Assembly (NCBI GenBank): GCA_010094025.1
Contig: ML991779.1
Coordinates: 434,001 to 498,000, forward strand
DNA from: Viridothelium virens
Lineage: Eukaryota; Ascomycota; Dothideomycetes; Trypetheliales; Trypetheliaceae
DNA: 64,000 nt
Reading direction: 5' to 3'
In this document: piece by piece, positions 3,864-37,989 of the stretch
Layout of the letters: the number at the start of each line of letters is the position of its first letter
Position numbering within the stretch: position 1 is the first letter of the stretch
Made by a program: the position numbers and the translations under genes
The notes under the pieces: model-generated
Databases searched by the model: none
What the model was told of the DNA's origin: nothing
What the model saw: only the letters and a program-made list of their open reading frames with translations

Positions 3864-4914
3864 ATCCTTTGGGTACGAATCTTCTATTTGCCATCCATTT
3901 CTCAACCGGGATTTCTTTTGTCCGACTCAACTCTTCAACGGGGCAGCGATGGCGTTTGCGGAGACCATAGATCACGATGAATGGGGATATGAAAGGATTC
4001 TAGCTGGCTCCAGCAGTGGCGCGATCTGGCCGGTAGAGAATCCTTTCTTCATGACGACCAACATAATTGCTTGTCCGGTGACTTCAGTCTCTGGCTTTCA
4101 ATGAACAAATCAATCGGCCACACACAGCACTCTCTCTGCACTGGACGGCAGAAAAGGGGAGCATCGGAATTATCGGGAAGGGAAACTGCTAGGCATATTG
4201 GTTGATGTGTTAATGCCATTTTTCCAAGCTAATCGTTTTAATATTCTGGAGCCGTTCGAGTGATATGTCTCTGGATACTTTTCGTTTCCTTCTCTTGTAC
4301 TCTATTGTCTTGTCTCAGCGGTCGGCGGAGAGGAAATTGTATTTACATGTGCCGGTCACAACTACCAAACTGTACAATTCAATTGAATGCGTTAAATTGT
4401 TCGACTGTCTTATACAGAAATTGGTACTTCAAGATTCGCAGACTTATTTAAGACCAGCTTGGCCCAAGCCAAGTTCCTGGCTTAAGAGATAGTGTGCACC
4501 TCTCACAGCTGAATCCGTACATGTAACCTAATTTGGGTATGCATTGCCGAATTGAGGTTACTTGACTGGTGTCGCTCCGTTTGAGTTTCGAACTGCTAAG
4601 CTGCCCTCAACGTGCGATGGCCGATGACTATTGTTACGATATGATGATATGCTTGATCCTCACCCCACGGCACTTCCTTCACCTGCATCCACCCATCAAT
4701 AAGACCGTAATTCCTTGTTACCTTACCAACCCCGTTCAATTCAATACAATAGGTCCCGCCACAGATAAAGGTTAAGTCTTCTTGTACCTCGGACGCTATG
4801 CTGAACCAGTTAGTGCTTTTCTTCAAGACTACCCATCTTTTCGTTACATAAATAGTTCGATGGAAGCTTCTCCCTAGATTCCATCTCTTGTGCCATACCT
4901 TCGACATTGTGACA
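3864..4914. other. Intergenic between stress regulator and DPH6
   Basis: About 1 kb with no supportable gene. It should hold the 3' untranslated region of the regulator and the promoter of the diphthine-ammonia ligase gene. The open frames here are short and show no recognisable domain. Confidence 0.5.
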
Positions 4915-7287
4915 ATGCCGACGATTTTAAATGTTGTCGCACTCATCTCCGGAGGCAAAGATTCGGTTTTCTCTATCTACCATTGTCGAGCAAAGGGACA
5001 TAAAATCGTTGCACTTGCGAATCTATTTCCACCCGGTGACGATCGAGATAGCGAGGACATGAATAGCTTCATGTATCAAACCATTGGACACAGTGTCATT
5101 CCACTGTATGAGAAGGCCTTTCAAATACCGCTGTTTCGCATGCGCATCCAGGGATTGGCAACCAATATCGACAAATATTACTCCCCGCCAGCGAATTCTA
5201 GGAGCGTAGACGGACCCTTTCCACAAGACGAGACGGAGTCGTTGTACCATCTGCTCAGTGTAGTCAAGACAGCACACCCGGAAGCCGATGCAGTCTGTAC
5301 GGGAGCCATCCTTTCGGACTATCAGCGAAGTCGCGTTGAATCTGTTGCGCTTCGACTTGGACTACAGTCTCTGGCATACCTATGGCAGTATCCGTATCTT
5401 CCCCCTCATACACAAACGTCGCTCTTGGAAGACATGGAATCGATACGACACAGAGCGATCATCATTAAGGTGGCGTCTGGCGGCCTAGATGAGTCGTTCC
5501 TTGGCCAGAACGTCGCGGACTCACGGATAATCGTAAAGCTTAGACGTGCGATGGGTAAATTCGGTCCCATTCAGGGCGGCTCTGTTCTGGGGGAAGGTGG
5601 CGAGTACGAAACATTATCTGTAAATGGACCAGGTGACCTCTGGAGTGAATCCGTGGCTATTGACACTGAGCAGATGCAGATCATTCTAGGAGAAGGAGGC
5701 ACAGCAGCCCTGAACATCAGGAATGCGAAACTCTCTAGGAAAGAAGACCTAGATATGACCCAATCGGAGTCACTGCGAACTCCAGAGGGACTCGATCCCG
5801 AATTCGAATGTTTGAGAAGAGAATTGGAAACCACTCAAGTCAAGCAAAAAGCTTATCGAAACCGAGGAGATTACGCTCCCTTCACAGTAGGAGCTAGTAA
5901 TCGATTTTCAATGCACGTTGCAAGGAGTCTTCTATACATCAACAATCTAGGCGCTTCCACAAACACTCAGGGAAGTGGGAGCGTCGATGAACAGATGAGT
6001 GTTATAATCAGCCGGCTGGCATCTTTGCTAAAAGGGAATAATCTACAAGATTCAGACGTAATATTTTCGACTCTAATCCTCCGCTCCATGTCTGACTTCA
6101 GAGCCGTTAATACGGTCTATGGAGCCTTCTTCTCTAGACCACAGCCTCCCGCTCGAGTGACCGTTGCCTGTGGCTCGAACCTGCCAGGAGGCGTGGACGT
6201 CACACTCTCAGTGGTTGTCAATCGGCTGAATGCCAGTCTGCGCCGTGGCCTCCACGTGCAGTCGATCTCATACTGGGCGCCAGCGAACATCGGGCCCTAT
6301 TCCCAAGCCGTTGGCATTGCATCAGGTTCGGGAGGCGAGGACGGGAAGAGGGCACAAGTAGTGTATATGGCCGGTCAGATCCCGCTCGTGCCCGCAACGA
6401 TGGAGTTGGTGAACTATGGGGAGACTATAGCCGAGTTCAAGGAGCAGACGGTACTGTCACTGCAGCATCTGTGGAGGGTGGGCCGCGCAATGGCGGTTGA
6501 GAATTGGCTTGTGGGAATTGCATTCGTCGCAACTCCATCTCAGTACCTGCAGACACCGGTGGAAGAGCTGGCTGATGTAGCTCTAGACGCGTGGTCGAGC
6601 CTTTACGATTTAGTACGCAGTCTTGATCATCAGGATGAGGATAGTGAAGCAGAAGGAGTAGACGTATGGGATCGAAAGTACGGACTCAACCGTCAGGACG
6701 ACGCGGACTCGTCGAGCACTATTGATACTCGACATCTTCTTCCGGATTTAGCACGTCTGAAATCGAAGGCGAGGCCGGAAGGGAATGCGCTGGTTGAGGA
6801 AGACCCATCGACGATAGCGCACTGTTTTGTGCTTGAAGTCGATGAGCTACCACGAGGGGCACAAATCGAATGGACGGGACTCGGTCTTGTGAATAGTGAC
6901 CTGGAACTTAGCTCGCAGCTAGGATCAAGAACGGTGCCTGATGCTGCTGATCCAGCAGCGCGCCAATTCGGTCCGTTGAGAGATTTAAAAAATGTAGATT
7001 ATCGGTCGTGTAGGATTGAGCAGACTGGAGAAACCTATGTCTGGTTAGGTATCGAGGATGTCAAGGAGACGAGTATAGGGGCAATCTTTCGCGAGATCCT
7101 TCCTAATCGTGAGATGCTACCGAATTGTATCGTGTATGCTGGCGAGGATCTACCAGTGTCTTTTGTGGGTGACTTGGCCGCGCAGATCATACCCTGTAAG
7201 TCAGTCTGGGGCTCAGGGGCTGGGTCTTTGGCTGCTGTCGTATTCTTCACAATTGAAGGGGGAGAAAGGAGGTATGAGGATGTATGA
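4915..7287 (+). CDS. DPH6: Diphthine-ammonia ligase (DPH6) with two RidA/YjgF-like domains
   Basis: Cytosolic enzyme for the last step of diphthamide synthesis on elongation factor 2: ATP-dependent amidation of diphthine. It is a single exon of 790 residues. The N-terminal ATP-pyrophosphatase domain (about residues 1-240) carries the PP-loop SGGKDS at residues 12-17 and a GEGGEYETL motif near residue 232. Two YjgF/RidA-like domains follow (about 330-440 and 460-600), as in fungal and plant Dph6. The C-terminal 190 residues are more divergent. The ATG at 4915 was chosen because the open frame upstream has no other ATG and homologues begin a few residues before the PP-loop (VVALISGGKDS). No intron is needed. 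Confidence 0.93.
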   Translation: MPTILNVVALISGGKDSVFSIYHCRAKGHKIVALANLFPPGDDRDSEDMNSFMYQTIGHSVIPLYEKAFQIPLFRMRIQGLATNIDKYYSPPANSRSVDGPFPQDETESLYHLLSVVKTAHPEADAVCTGAILSDYQRSRVESVALRLGLQSLAYLWQYPYLPPHTQTSLLEDMESIRHRAIIIKVASGGLDESFLGQNVADSRIIVKLRRAMGKFGPIQGGSVLGEGGEYETLSVNGPGDLWSESVAIDTEQMQIILGEGGTAALNIRNAKLSRKEDLDMTQSESLRTPEGLDPEFECLRRELETTQVKQKAYRNRGDYAPFTVGASNRFSMHVARSLLYINNLGASTNTQGSGSVDEQMSVIISRLASLLKGNNLQDSDVIFSTLILRSMSDFRAVNTVYGAFFSRPQPPARVTVACGSNLPGGVDVTLSVVVNRLNASLRRGLHVQSISYWAPANIGPYSQAVGIASGSGGEDGKRAQVVYMAGQIPLVPATMELVNYGETIAEFKEQTVLSLQHLWRVGRAMAVENWLVGIAFVATPSQYLQTPVEELADVALDAWSSLYDLVRSLDHQDEDSEAEGVDVWDRKYGLNRQDDADSSSTIDTRHLLPDLARLKSKARPEGNALVEEDPSTIAHCFVLEVDELPRGAQIEWTGLGLVNSDLELSSQLGSRTVPDAADPAARQFGPLRDLKNVDYRSCRIEQTGETYVWLGIEDVKETSIGAIFREILPNREMLPNCIVYAGEDLPVSFVGDLAAQIIPCKSVWGSGAGSLAAVVFFTIEGGERRYEDV

Positions 7288-33539: not shown

Positions 33540-34693
33540 ATGCATTACGTCCGCTTTCTGAAACCACCCTATTTGGACTCAGAAGGCGATAGAAACCTTG
33601 TCAAATGTCTGATAACCATCACAACCGACCTTGGTGAATCTTTCTATCCTCAAGATGTTCCTCTTGCGGCCACCCTACGATCGCACGACCCTGATGGTGA
33701 TATTTTCCTGCGCAGAACCCTTCCATGGTCACAGGGAATGCGGTCTATACCCCTTGCTTTTGACATAACCAACTCTGATGTCGATTGGCCCCTACGTGTT
33801 CATATCGGCCCTAAGAACAGTCCCTTTTCCGATCACTTCGAAAGCCAGCACCCCGGTGCTCCTCCGGCTGTGATTTCAGCATGGAGTGGTGATATACAGA
33901 AGGCAGGAGCCGACTCAGAGTCCCCAAGAATGGTGGAGCGACGGTTCACTCCCTTCAGTGACCGCATCATCAGCATTTGGGAGGAAACGGGTGAGAGTAT
34001 TGCCCGTCATCTCTGGTATGATACTGCAATCCTGCGCTTGCGACAAAGAACTTATATCTCAATAGGGATGCTGGTGTTGTTCTTGCAGGTTTTCTCGATC
34101 GCGTGGTATCGTTACAAGAGAAGGATCTCCCCATACTAGAGCGTACTTTAGTATCTGCCACCTACAAACGCCTAAATGTCCTAGAATTGGGTTGCGGATG
34201 CGGCATAGTTGGAATTGCCATGGCGCAAACCATACCCGATTGCTCGGTAATACTGACCGACACGCCTGAGGTGGAAGAGATCGTCACGCGAAACATATCC
34301 AACATGAACCCAGCAATATCTTCTGCCGTCCACTTCCAACCTTTGAACTGGGAAGCTGAACTTCCTCTCAGAGTCCGCGAAAGAACCTTGGACATGATTG
34401 TCGCCGCGGACTGCACGTATAATCCAGATTCAGCGCAAGACCTTGTGAGGACAATAGCAGCTCTTGTCTCAAGATCACCGAGAGCTATTGTGATAATATC
34501 AATGAAGACTCGACATCCTAGCGAGGCCATCTTCTTCGAGCTGCTCTCTGCAGCCAATCTGACGCAGGCCAGCCATTCTTCAGTTGCTTTGCCTGATGAT
34601 GACACCCCTGTTGACATTTTTGTGTACCATAGCCACGACCGACCTATGACACGCGAGAAGGGTGACAGTTCCGTATTGGGCAAGGTCCAGTGA
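33540..34693 (+). CDS. Methyltransferase-16 family protein (Rrg1/EFM-like)
   Basis: Class I S-adenosylmethionine methyltransferase of the lysine-methyltransferase group (METTL21/EFM/Rrg1). Exons 33540-34015 and 34066-34693 give 367 residues; the 50-bp intron interrupts the conserved HLWDAGVVLAGFL. The N-terminal 160 residues (MHYVRFLKPP then CLITITTDLGESFYP) match the fungal subfamily sometimes labelled nicotinamide N-methyltransferase-like. The cofactor motif LELGCGCGIVGIAMA and the post-motif DMIVAADCTYNPDS are present. The target is probably a protein lysine, by family. The ATG at 33540 was chosen by similarity; the frame is open to 33477. Confidence 0.85.
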
Positions 34694-35771
34694 TAGTCCT
34701 ACTCTTTTCGTCTTCAACTTCAATCCCTATGATAAGAATATCTTTTGTGAAGAAATGTCAAATCACAACCAGACTTACAGAAAGGAGGCAGGCTCCTGTA
34801 GAACCAGCTCCAAACACTAATGTCACTCTGAGATAGTTGCGGGCTTAGCACATTAAATTGGATGAACCGTAGAGCTGGAGTTTTTAATGACCTATACACC
34901 AGGATCGACACAGCTCACGAAACAACTCTCCAAAGTCGACCAGGCTGGATAATCTTCAAGTCTCTGGACTACCATGGTGGAGACGCCTTCGCTTCTTAGA
35001 GTGTACAGTAAGAAGAAGATCGCTACTATCAGCCGATCTCCTTTATAACCCATATCTAGCCTTTGACTGTAAAGATGCTATCGTACTCGTGTTGGATGAT
35101 CTGTGTAGCGATAGATATATGAGGACAAAGTAACTTCGCAGAAAGTCCATTTCTACTTTCAGGCCTGAGTCACGTAGCTTACCTGTATGGTACAACGCGA
35201 GCACTTGATTAGCGGCATTAGCCGTGGCTGAGCGTAGATCAAGCGAGCCTGAGCGTGCTCCTTTTCGGTCATCCTACTTACTTCTGCAGTCTATCGACTC
35301 GACCGTTGTCTTGGACACAAGGACCAATTCAACGAAGCCGAAGCTAAACGTCTATTTGCATACTTGCTGAAGCCTACTAAAGAGTGCTTTTAGACTGGGG
35401 GATGCGAGTATGCTGAACATTACAGCGTGATTGGCATTGTTATGCCACAAGAGGTCGGAAGGGCTGGCTGAGAAAGTGCTTGAAACTCAAAAGTAAGGGA
35501 GGTATGTACGGAGTACTTGTACAGATCAATTGTGTGGTGTCGGCTGAAACACCAGGTATTTGACTTATCGATAAAAGCATTACCAAGGGGCTATCATACA
35601 CTGTTCAAGACTCAATTGTGATATAATTGTGGGATAAACTTCTCCTGAAATATATGAAGCTGTACAAAGTGGAGGTGTTGATGCCACGGACCGATTCGAC
35701 CTGGTAGCCTTTGACAGTTGCAACATTCGAGTGATATATACCATAACTAACTTCGTTCTGGACTAAATCAT
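34694..35771. other. Intergenic, upstream of the tRNA gene
   Basis: About 1.1 kb with no supportable protein gene or repeat. It separates the first methyltransferase gene from the tRNA gene. Confidence 0.4.
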
Positions 35772-35894
35772 GGCGGGCTGGCGCAATGTAAGCGTCATAA
35801 GTCAAATCTGATCTATGTAAAACTAAAATCCCCTCCAGGGTAGCGCGTTCCCCTCCTAAGGGAAAGGTTTTGGGTTCGAGTCCCAAGCTCGTCG
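35772..35894 (+). tRNA. tRNA-Arg(CCU), D-loop interrupted by a 51-nt GT-AG segment
   Basis: Without 35788-35838 the sequence is a complete 72-nt tRNA. Acceptor 35772-35778 pairs 7/7 with 35887-35893 (two G-U pairs). T8-G9 is followed by D-stem GCGC 35781-35784 paired to GCGC 35843-35846, with D-loop AAT|GGTA. Anticodon stem TTCCC/GGGAA (35848-35852/35860-35864) carries loop CTCCTAA with anticodon CCT at 35855-35857. The variable loop is AGGTT, T-stem TTGGG/CCAA-type 5 of 5, T-loop TTCGAGT and discriminator G. Every segment length equals that of the yeast tRNA-Arg(CCU), with which it also shares the loops. A 12-T terminator follows. The A box (TGGCGCAATGG when joined) is split by the insert, which still supplies TGGCGCAATGT. 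Identity is firm; whether the gene works depends on removal of the insert. Confidence 0.92.
35788..35838 (+). other. Spliceosomal-intron-like insert in the tRNA D-loop
   Basis: 51 nt beginning GTAAGC and ending CTCCAG, with AACTAAAA (branch-like CTAAA) about 12 nt before the 3' end. Length and signals match the mRNA introns of this window (47-60 bp). Canonical nuclear tRNA introns lie between nucleotides 37 and 38; this one lies before G18-G19. An equivalent cut one base later (TA...GG ends) gives the same tRNA, so the GT-AG register is a choice. Its first bases (GTAAGCGTC) resemble the D-arm 3' side that follows it (GGTAGCGCG). Confidence 0.7.
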
Positions 35895-35903
35895 AGCACG
35901 ACG

Positions 35904-35915
35904 TTTTTTTTTTTT
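35904..35915 (+). terminator. RNA polymerase III terminator
   Basis: A run of 12 T starting 10 nt after the tRNA 3' end on the sense strand, typical of Pol III termination. Confidence 0.85.
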
Positions 35916-36328: not shown

Positions 36329-37182
36329 GCATACATATCGTTGGGGTTACGAACCACAAAAGTAGGGTAGTTACCAAAGTGCAGGACCTCCGATTTTTAG
36401 GAAATGTGTTCCATTGGCTACCGTAGGTGCAGCTTGTCAGCCTCGTAATAACGCTATGATGGGGTGGCATGCGCCAAGATCCTATTCACATCGTGCTCTG
36501 CACTGCCCATCTGACGACGAAAAAGAACATCTTCGCAGAGTAGACTTAGACTTGGAAGCCGATGTAGTAGAAAGCATTGTCAAACACCAAGGATTAATGG
36601 GTAGTGTGATGACGTCCGCATGTACTAGCAGGTCTCATCTTATTACCGAGAAGTAGCTCAGCAACAGAGTAGTAATGTTTGTGAAGAAAGAAGCTCGAAC
36701 CAACCTGAATCTCGAGTTCTCCAAAGCACGGGAAGATGGCGACTACGCACAGACCCCATCTCACCCGTCCGCGCCGCCATCCCCTTGTTCAAGCCGATTG
36801 CATTTTGTCATTTTTCAACACCTGCGTCACCTGTAGCTGTGCCGTTACAATCGTACGATTCTCATTTTGAGCCAAGGTACGTCGAAGCTCAGAACCATGA
36901 TTATCGGACATGCTCATTTTTTGGCAATAGCGAGGATTTTTTGTGGACGCAACTTTTGACTTCCTCACCGCCGTGTCTTTTGACATCCTTCATTTTGTCA
37001 TGAACACTATGAAGTATTGAATCAAACGCCTATCGACCCCTAGGCTCTATTAACGCTTGTTCGACAAATTTCGTTCGTAGGGACAAAGCTTGATCTGGAT
37101 TGGTGATATGCTGATCCCAAGGCCAATAGGAGGCATTGGAAAGCGCGAAAGGGTGGTCCTTTGTATTTCGTAGATACGACCA

Positions 37183-37989
37183 ATGCGCAGAATTCCCCGC
37201 ACGTTTCCAATACCATCTTCGAATGGTACGATAGTTTTGAAACTCGAAGCACCAGCTGTCAGAGCTCAGAATCTTGTCCTGGAAGCATGGAGCTCTTCTT
37301 ATGTCCTTACCCAACATCTCCACGAAATCACGTCTGACTTTGAGCCTGCGCTAATGAGTCTCCGCAAAATTCGTAGCGAGAGGCTTCCAACGCCCAATGG
37401 AGATGACGATATCAGCAACATCGGCGCTCCTCTGTTTCCATCTTCTAGTCTCGGTGTTCTTGAACTAGGCGCGGGGATCGGTCTTGTTGGCCTTGCCGCC
37501 TCATCGCTCTGGAGTGTACCTCTAATCCTCACAGATCTTGTACCAATTGTCGAGCCAATCATCTCAAATATTAAGCTGAACGCAGACACACTGGCGGCAA
37601 ATGGAGGCAGCGCTTGTGCAGGAGCTCTTGACTGGGATGAGCCCGACACGCTGTCTCTGTACAACGGCACGACTCCGCTGTCTCTTCAAGCCTCGAAATT
37701 AGATGCAGGAGACAAAGCGAAGATCATACTTGCCGCAGACGTTGTATACTGCGAGGATCACCCGCGCATATTGACCAAAGCCATCTTTGCATGGTTGAGT
37801 CCCGGGGAGGAGGCTCGCGTTGTAATTGCCTATCCGCTGCGAATTGCATATCTAGATCAGATTCGGGAATTATGGGAACGCTTGGATAATGGAGGCTTGA
37901 CATCGATACGAGAAGGAAGAGCGCGAGCGGATGATACTTGGGATGACGAGGAAGAGATAGAGTGGTGTGTCTGGAAATGGAAAGCATAG
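37183..37989 (+). CDS. Methyltransferase-16 family protein (EFM/METTL21-like)
   Basis: A single-exon, 268-residue class I methyltransferase. The N-terminal beta segment (TIVLKLEAPAVRAQNLVLEAWSS) is followed by motif I VLELGAGIGLVGLAASSLW, acidic motif ILTDLVPIVEPI, and the family's IILAADVVYCEDHP. It ends EEEIEWCVWKWKA, near the usual end of these enzymes. The family methylates lysines on elongation factors or chaperones; the exact target is not readable. It is a distant paralogue of the methyltransferase gene 2.5 kb upstream, not a recent copy: the two share only family motifs and differ in intron content and N-terminus. Confidence 0.85.
   Translation: MRRIPRTFPIPSSNGTIVLKLEAPAVRAQNLVLEAWSSSYVLTQHLHEITSDFEPALMSLRKIRSERLPTPNGDDDISNIGAPLFPSSSLGVLELGAGIGLVGLAASSLWSVPLILTDLVPIVEPIISNIKLNADTLAANGGSACAGALDWDEPDTLSLYNGTTPLSLQASKLDAGDKAKIILAADVVYCEDHPRILTKAIFAWLSPGEEARVVIAYPLRIAYLDQIRELWERLDNGGLTSIREGRARADDTWDDEEEIEWCVWKWKA

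Follow-up and report, generated by a model that had tools for sequence, protein, structure and literature searches.

Splicing of transfer RNA (tRNA) and splicing of messenger RNA (mRNA) are regarded as two distinct systems. A review of 2026 still files tRNA splicing as independent of the spliceosome and not guided by GT-AG ends (PMC13149111; here and below, statements on cited papers refer to the excerpts available of them). The nearest precedent for a case between the two systems is the mRNA-type intron of the fission yeast U6 small nuclear RNA (snRNA) gene, which in Schizosaccharomyces pombe is spliced from a transcript of RNA polymerase III (Pol III) (PMC10484740). A tRNA that depends on the spliceosome would be unexpected. 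Here we describe a candidate for such a gene, at positions 35772-35894 of a 64,000-nucleotide (nt) stretch of the genome of Viridothelium virens (contig ML991779.1; the whole stretch is called the window). With modest confidence, resting on the DNA letters, we read the locus as a functional gene for tRNA-Arg(CCU), of the Pol III type, in a filamentous ascomycete, apparently with a 51-nt U2-type spliceosomal intron in its D-loop. This spliceosomal reading is the best supported one, and a young interrupted pseudogene is the second.

The joined tRNA and its Pol III signals

When 35772-35787 and 35839-35894 were joined and the 51 nt of 35788-35838 skipped, a tRNA-Arg(CCU) of 72 nt on the + strand was obtained, and ARAGORN called the joined exons tRNA-Arg(cct). 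Two tRNA-Arg(ACG) genes of Aspergillus niger are also 72 nt long (PMC6108506). The parts of the locus are:

35772-35787, + strand: tRNA-Arg(CCU) 5' exon, with the acceptor 5' strand (1-7), positions 8-9, the D-stem 5' strand (10-13) and A14, A15 and T16 (ARAGORN, pairing check)
35788-35838, + strand: insert, U2-type intron-like, 5' GTAAGC and 3' CAG, in the D-loop between tRNA positions 16 and 18 (ARAGORN on the joined form, scan, motif test)
35808-35812, + strand: branch-like CTGAT, A at 35811, 27 nt before the insert 3' end (motif search)
35823-35827, + strand: branch-like CTAAA, A at 35826, 12 nt before the insert 3' end (motif search)
35839-35894, + strand: tRNA-Arg(CCU) 3' exon, with G18, G19, T20 and A21, the D-stem 3' strand, the anticodon arm (CCT), the variable loop, the T arm, the acceptor 3' strand and G73 (ARAGORN, pairing check, Rfam RF00005)

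The joined form had all 21 stem pairs (acceptor 7/7, D 4/4, anticodon 5/5, T 5/5). It also fitted the consensus at each of the 19 positions checked, with the anticodon CCT and the discriminator G73. A sequence-only reading of this DNA had called the 72-nt tRNA faultless once 35788-35838 was deleted. The pairing and the ARAGORN call bear this out, except that two of the pairs are G.U. Those two pairs are readable either way, and no clear decay was found in the stems or the consensus.

We scanned the window with a cloverleaf pattern that demanded all pairs, T8, A14, R15, GG, A21, T33 and the T-loop bases, and allowed a D-loop insert of 0-120 nt. A single place passed, the locus 35772-35894, in six registers with inserts of 48, 49, 50 or 51 nt. 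Forty first-order Marko‌v resampled windows, searched on both strands, gave no match. Since D-loops vary in size, the ends of the insert are not fixed by the tRNA alone. The five other registers are structurally allowed, yet none of them both starts with GT and ends with AG; 35788-35838 alone does.

The uncut form was hard to see for general tRNA finders. Without introns, ARAGORN found no tRNA anywhere in the window and did not call the uncut locus tRNA-Arg, and no match in the window was found with Rfam at its own cut-offs. At a relaxed threshold RF00005 matched 35841-35886, omitting the acceptor stem, and its 26.8 bits (E 0.0018 in a search of 501 bases) stayed below the cut-off of 29. With introns allowed, ARAGORN called the unjoined form tRNA-Trp(cca), a call we rejected for its unpaired anticodon-stem positions and the lack of GG in the D-loop. 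We also set aside a 12-codon frame (35770-35859), opened by an ATG that starts two bases 5' of the tRNA and ending, across the exon junction of the joined form, at a TAA of the anticodon loop; it is too short and probably a coincidence.

Signals of the Pol III type were present around and within the gene:

35735-35740, + strand: TATA-like TATATA, a possible TFIIIB-site element, 37 to 32 bases before tRNA base 1; no more than suggestive, the + strand of the 64 kb having 16 TATATA/TATAAA hexamers
35779-35788, + strand: A-box-like TRGCNNARNG, overlapping the start of the insert by its last base; the pattern occurs 13 times on the + strand (pattern search)
35873-35883, + strand: B box GGTTCGAGTCC, the sole strict match in the window on both strands (pattern search)
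35904-35915, + strand: run of 12 T, Pol III terminator-like; the sole T run of at least 8 on the + strand of the window, the - strand having two

The T run is the terminator that the sequence-only reading had named. Nine bases lie between it and the last base of the tRNA; in the A. niger genes tested, the distance from tRNA end to T run was 7-42 nt (PMC6108506). Cloverleaf, consensus, B box and T run together show that the locus is, or recently was, a nuclear-type tRNA gene.

Splice signals of the insert and rival explanations

The insert had been described from the letters as 51 nt from GTAAGC to CAG at 35788-35838, with a branch-like CTAAA 12 nt before its end, and coordinates and letters proved to be as described. 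Its 5' end fits the splice site GTRNG(Y), and its CAG end fits YAG. The guanine plus cytosine (GC) content was 37% in the insert, 62.5% in the exons and 44% in the flanks. The anticodon loop is uninterrupted, and nothing is inserted at position 37/38, where the introns cut by the tRNA splicing endonuclease (TSEN) lie.

Likeness to the mRNA introns around the gene had also been claimed. A motif and reading-frame finder gave 18 candidate introns in the window, 17 without overlap, which served for the comparison of size and make-up. These 17, selected by motif and none transcript-checked, were 44-109 nt long with the make-up GTRNG..CTRAY..YAG, and the 51 nt of the insert fall inside this range; to that extent the likeness stands. 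A hexamer-based finder, with 128 candidates (26 without overlap), was dropped for poor sites.

For a chance test, a frame was slid over both strands of the window, with the locus excluded, at 127,881 places. Three starts and three ends were accepted, because the insert ends are not uniquely fixed by the tRNA. Taken as guides, the counts were 4,104 placements with GT..AG, 200 with GTRNG..YAG (~1.6 in 1,000), 20 with GTAAG..YAG (~1.6 in 10,000), and 18 with GTRNG..YAG plus a CTRAH site near the end. Such counts favour a genuine U2-type intron. The sequence-only reading had left the choice between the spliceosome and an unusual endonuclease. With splice-site ends that beat chance, no bulge-helix-bulge and a place other than 37/38, the insert looks U2-type spliceosomal and not like an intron of the tRNA endonuclease, so that the second option is disfavoured.

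In the mechanism we propose, Pol III would transcribe the gene from its internal boxes through to the T12 terminator, giving a precursor that retains the acceptor and T stems. The spliceosome would recognise GUAAGC, a branch site at CUAAA (or CUGAU) and CAG. Removal of the insert would join U16 to G18, after which the true D arm could form and the tRNA mature normally. We infer transcription, splicing by the spliceosome and a function in decoding AGG. The stricter claim, that an AGG-decoding cytosolic tRNA of a filamentous fungus requires the spliceosome to take a U2-type intron out of its Pol III precursor, we put forward tentatively, as a possibility somewhat short of even. AGG made up 99 of the 9,793 codons in the stop-to-stop frames of at least 300 amino acids (aa) of the window, a somewhat noisy count, so that a tRNA-Arg(CCU) has work to do. 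In baker's yeast the CCU tRNA-Arg is single-copy and not essential, and tRNA-Arg(UCU) can read AGG.

The predicted minimum-energy fold of the uncut precursor contained the acceptor stem and 4 of the 5 T-stem pairs. The D-stem 5' strand paired with insert bases 5-9, giving a stand-in D arm (35780-35796). This predicted fold would be compatible with action of ribonuclease P before splicing. It is a weak result, because 9 of 200 shuffles folded at least as well. The insert alone was predicted to form a small hairpin (z -3.0; 4 of 200 shuffles folded at least as well) that leaves CTAAA and the 3' end single-stranded.

Several points weigh against the spliceosomal reading. CTRAY is the branch consensus; the nearer site, CTAAA, comes close to it without matching, and the fitting CTGAT lies farther off, at 27 nt. 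The chance test used motif classes chosen with the insert already known, which makes its counts guides and not clean probabilities. With a splice-site score trained on the 17 candidate introns, the insert beat just 3 of the 17, in a comparison that, as regards the consensus bases, is circular. The stand-in D-arm hairpin of the predicted precursor fold includes the 5' splice site, which could slow recognition of that site. The longer A box TRGCNNARNGG is not formed with the insert present, its final G falling in the second exon, and the insert stretches the spacing from A to B box to 94 bases. The G.U pairs of the acceptor stem, at 2:71 and 5:68, are each one C-to-T change away from a G-C pair and could be early decay or ordinary variation. 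Lastly, the sequence-only reading knew of no D-loop spliceosomal intron in a nuclear tRNA; this agrees with the open-access literature, where no spliceosomal intron in a nuclear tRNA was found among the matches listed, as judged by title and start of abstract.

The most serious rival, although we consider it rather unlikely, is an interrupted pseudogene. One of several CCU genes would have received an intron-like piece, through reverse splicing or template switching for instance, leaving this copy dead or nearly so while the others supply the tRNA. Such a history has parallels, since D- or T-arm insertions in eukaryotic tRNAs mostly affect a single gene among many synonymous ones, and such genes are regarded as pseudogenes (PMC4090602, a review), and the two G.U pairs could mark early decay. 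The rest of the gene speaks otherwise: stem pairs and checked consensus positions are all intact, as are the B box and T12. By a simple model, the chance that all of ~50 sensitive sites (an estimate) stay unhit is 0.36 at 2% and 0.08 at 5% neutral divergence; a dead copy would therefore have to be young. The insert, moreover, bears splice signals at ends that restore the tRNA, and BLAST found no source for it elsewhere in the window, the best other match being 11 bases. The same comparison showed that insert positions 42-49 (35829-35836) equal eight bases of the anticodon arm (35849-35856), with an E of 39, within chance.

An improbable alternative is a non-canonical tRNA intron of the kind seen in red algae and nucleomorphs, for which the tRNA splicing endonuclease would do the cutting and tRNA ligase the joining. 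Ectopic introns in the D arm or D-loop are known from Cyanidioschyzon merolae and from nucleomorphs, and many of those in Guillardia theta are without a defined bulge-helix-bulge (PMC3978253, PMC4090602). For this reason the missing motif is not decisive here, where at most 2 of the 4 central pairs were found in any of 12 registers. The splice-site match would, on this reading, have to be chance (20 of 127,881 placements). The canonical place, furthermore, is where most eukaryotic tRNA introns are found (PMC4090602), and the D arm, which this insert disrupts, is a probable binding site of Sen54 (PMC3978253). Splicing might instead concern a Pol II transcript running through the tRNA, with the Pol III unit unspliced and the tRNA, if any, cut from the spliced Pol II RNA. 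Two open frames for Methyltransf_16 (lysine-methyltransferase-like) proteins, 34022-34693 and 37174-37989, flank the tRNA on the same strand, and there would be nothing unusual about an intron in a long 3' tail. The tRNA, however, has a T12 run of its own and stands ~1.1 kb downstream of the one frame and ~1.3 kb upstream of the other, and no open frame of at least 180 aa covers it or lies anywhere between the two; we regard this explanation as very improbable. Equally little probability goes to chance likeness or an assembly error, by which 51 random or artefactual bases happened to begin with GTAAG and end with CAG. The tRNA does allow several registers, of which the GT-AG one is a member, but the chance corrected for this freedom is the ~1.6 in 10,000 (GTAAG..YAG) or 1.6 in 1,000 (GTRNG..YAG) of the sliding test, and an assembly error would hardly respect the D-loop.

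Genomic setting and scans for relatives

The window had a GC content of 47-54% per 4-kb step and contained fungal genes, namely for eisosome protein 1, a HET-domain protein and a Zn(2)-Cys(6) factor, a gene content that suggests a filamentous ascomycete as the probable host. The two methyltransferase-like frames beside the tRNA could be used as synteny marks in related species. Elsewhere in the window, one open frame (4852-7287) carries a diphthamide synthase domain together with an endoribonuclease L-PSP domain, an arrangement known from other fungi.

We scanned viral contigs and contigs of bacterial and archaeal genomes for relatives of the locus; in either collection a fungal one would be possible just as a stray, and these scans gave none. 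The DNA patterns of the tRNA gave no match in viral contigs. In contigs of bacterial and archaeal genomes, one pattern gave no match and another gave two, in a Neisseriales (L001) and a Phycisphaeraceae (L002) contig. Neither had a tRNA by ARAGORN or in the inspected stretch, and both were taken as chance. The two neighbouring methyltransferase-like proteins had no relative in the viral contigs.

A general pattern for the 3' half of tRNA-Arg(CCU) matched nine viral-contig loci, and at eight of them ARAGORN called a plain, uninterrupted tRNA-Arg(cct). The nine loci are silent on conservation in fungi, because none is known as fungal. The ninth (L010, about 758-789, - strand) had the tRNA-Arg(CCU) 3' half alone, without a tRNA call by ARAGORN, and is perhaps a phage attachment site.

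Comparison with known introns

If the spliceosomal reading is true, U6 would not be the sole short, structured Pol III transcript on which the spliceosome can act. Maturation of a nuclear tRNA would then have passed from the tRNA endonuclease to the mRNA splicing machine, tying the decoding of AGG to spliceosome activity, and the insert would record that a non-coding gene gained an intron. Genes of this kind can be missed by tRNA finders, as here by ARAGORN without introns and by the Rfam tRNA model at its cut-off. In tRNAscan-SE 2.0, non-canonical introns are sought with an archaeal model (PMC8450103), so that such genes are expected to be missed in fungal annotation. Isoacceptors that seem to be missing from fungal genomes could be searched for by allowing inserts in the D-loop.

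Like the canonical TSEN introns, the insert lies in a nuclear tRNA gene, and its 51 nt are inside their known range of 6-133 nt (PMC4090602). It differs from them in its place, at 16/18 of the D-loop, in having no bulge-helix-bulge and in its spliceosomal-type ends. The ectopic introns of C. merolae and of nucleomorphs likewise interrupt eukaryotic tRNAs in the D arm or D-loop. In contrast to the insert, the C. merolae introns are described as being of the bulge-helix-bulge kind, the ectopic introns of the Guillardia nucleomorph measure 3-24 nt, and the excerpts of the two papers ascribe GT-AG to none of the C. merolae or nucleomorph ectopic introns (PMC3978253, PMC4090602).

In its GTRNG..CTRAY..YAG make-up and in a size like that of the 17 motif-selected candidates of the window, the insert resembles the mRNA introns of filamentous ascomycetes. 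Unlike theirs, its host is a tRNA with Pol III-like signals, whose first exon holds just 16 tRNA bases. The U6 snRNA gene of S. pombe is alike in that an mRNA-type intron lies in a Pol III-type non-coding RNA gene of a fungus. U6, however, belongs to the spliceosome itself, and reverse splicing near the catalytic nucleotides is the presumed origin of its intron (PMC10484740), whereas the tRNA has no such link to the splicing machine.
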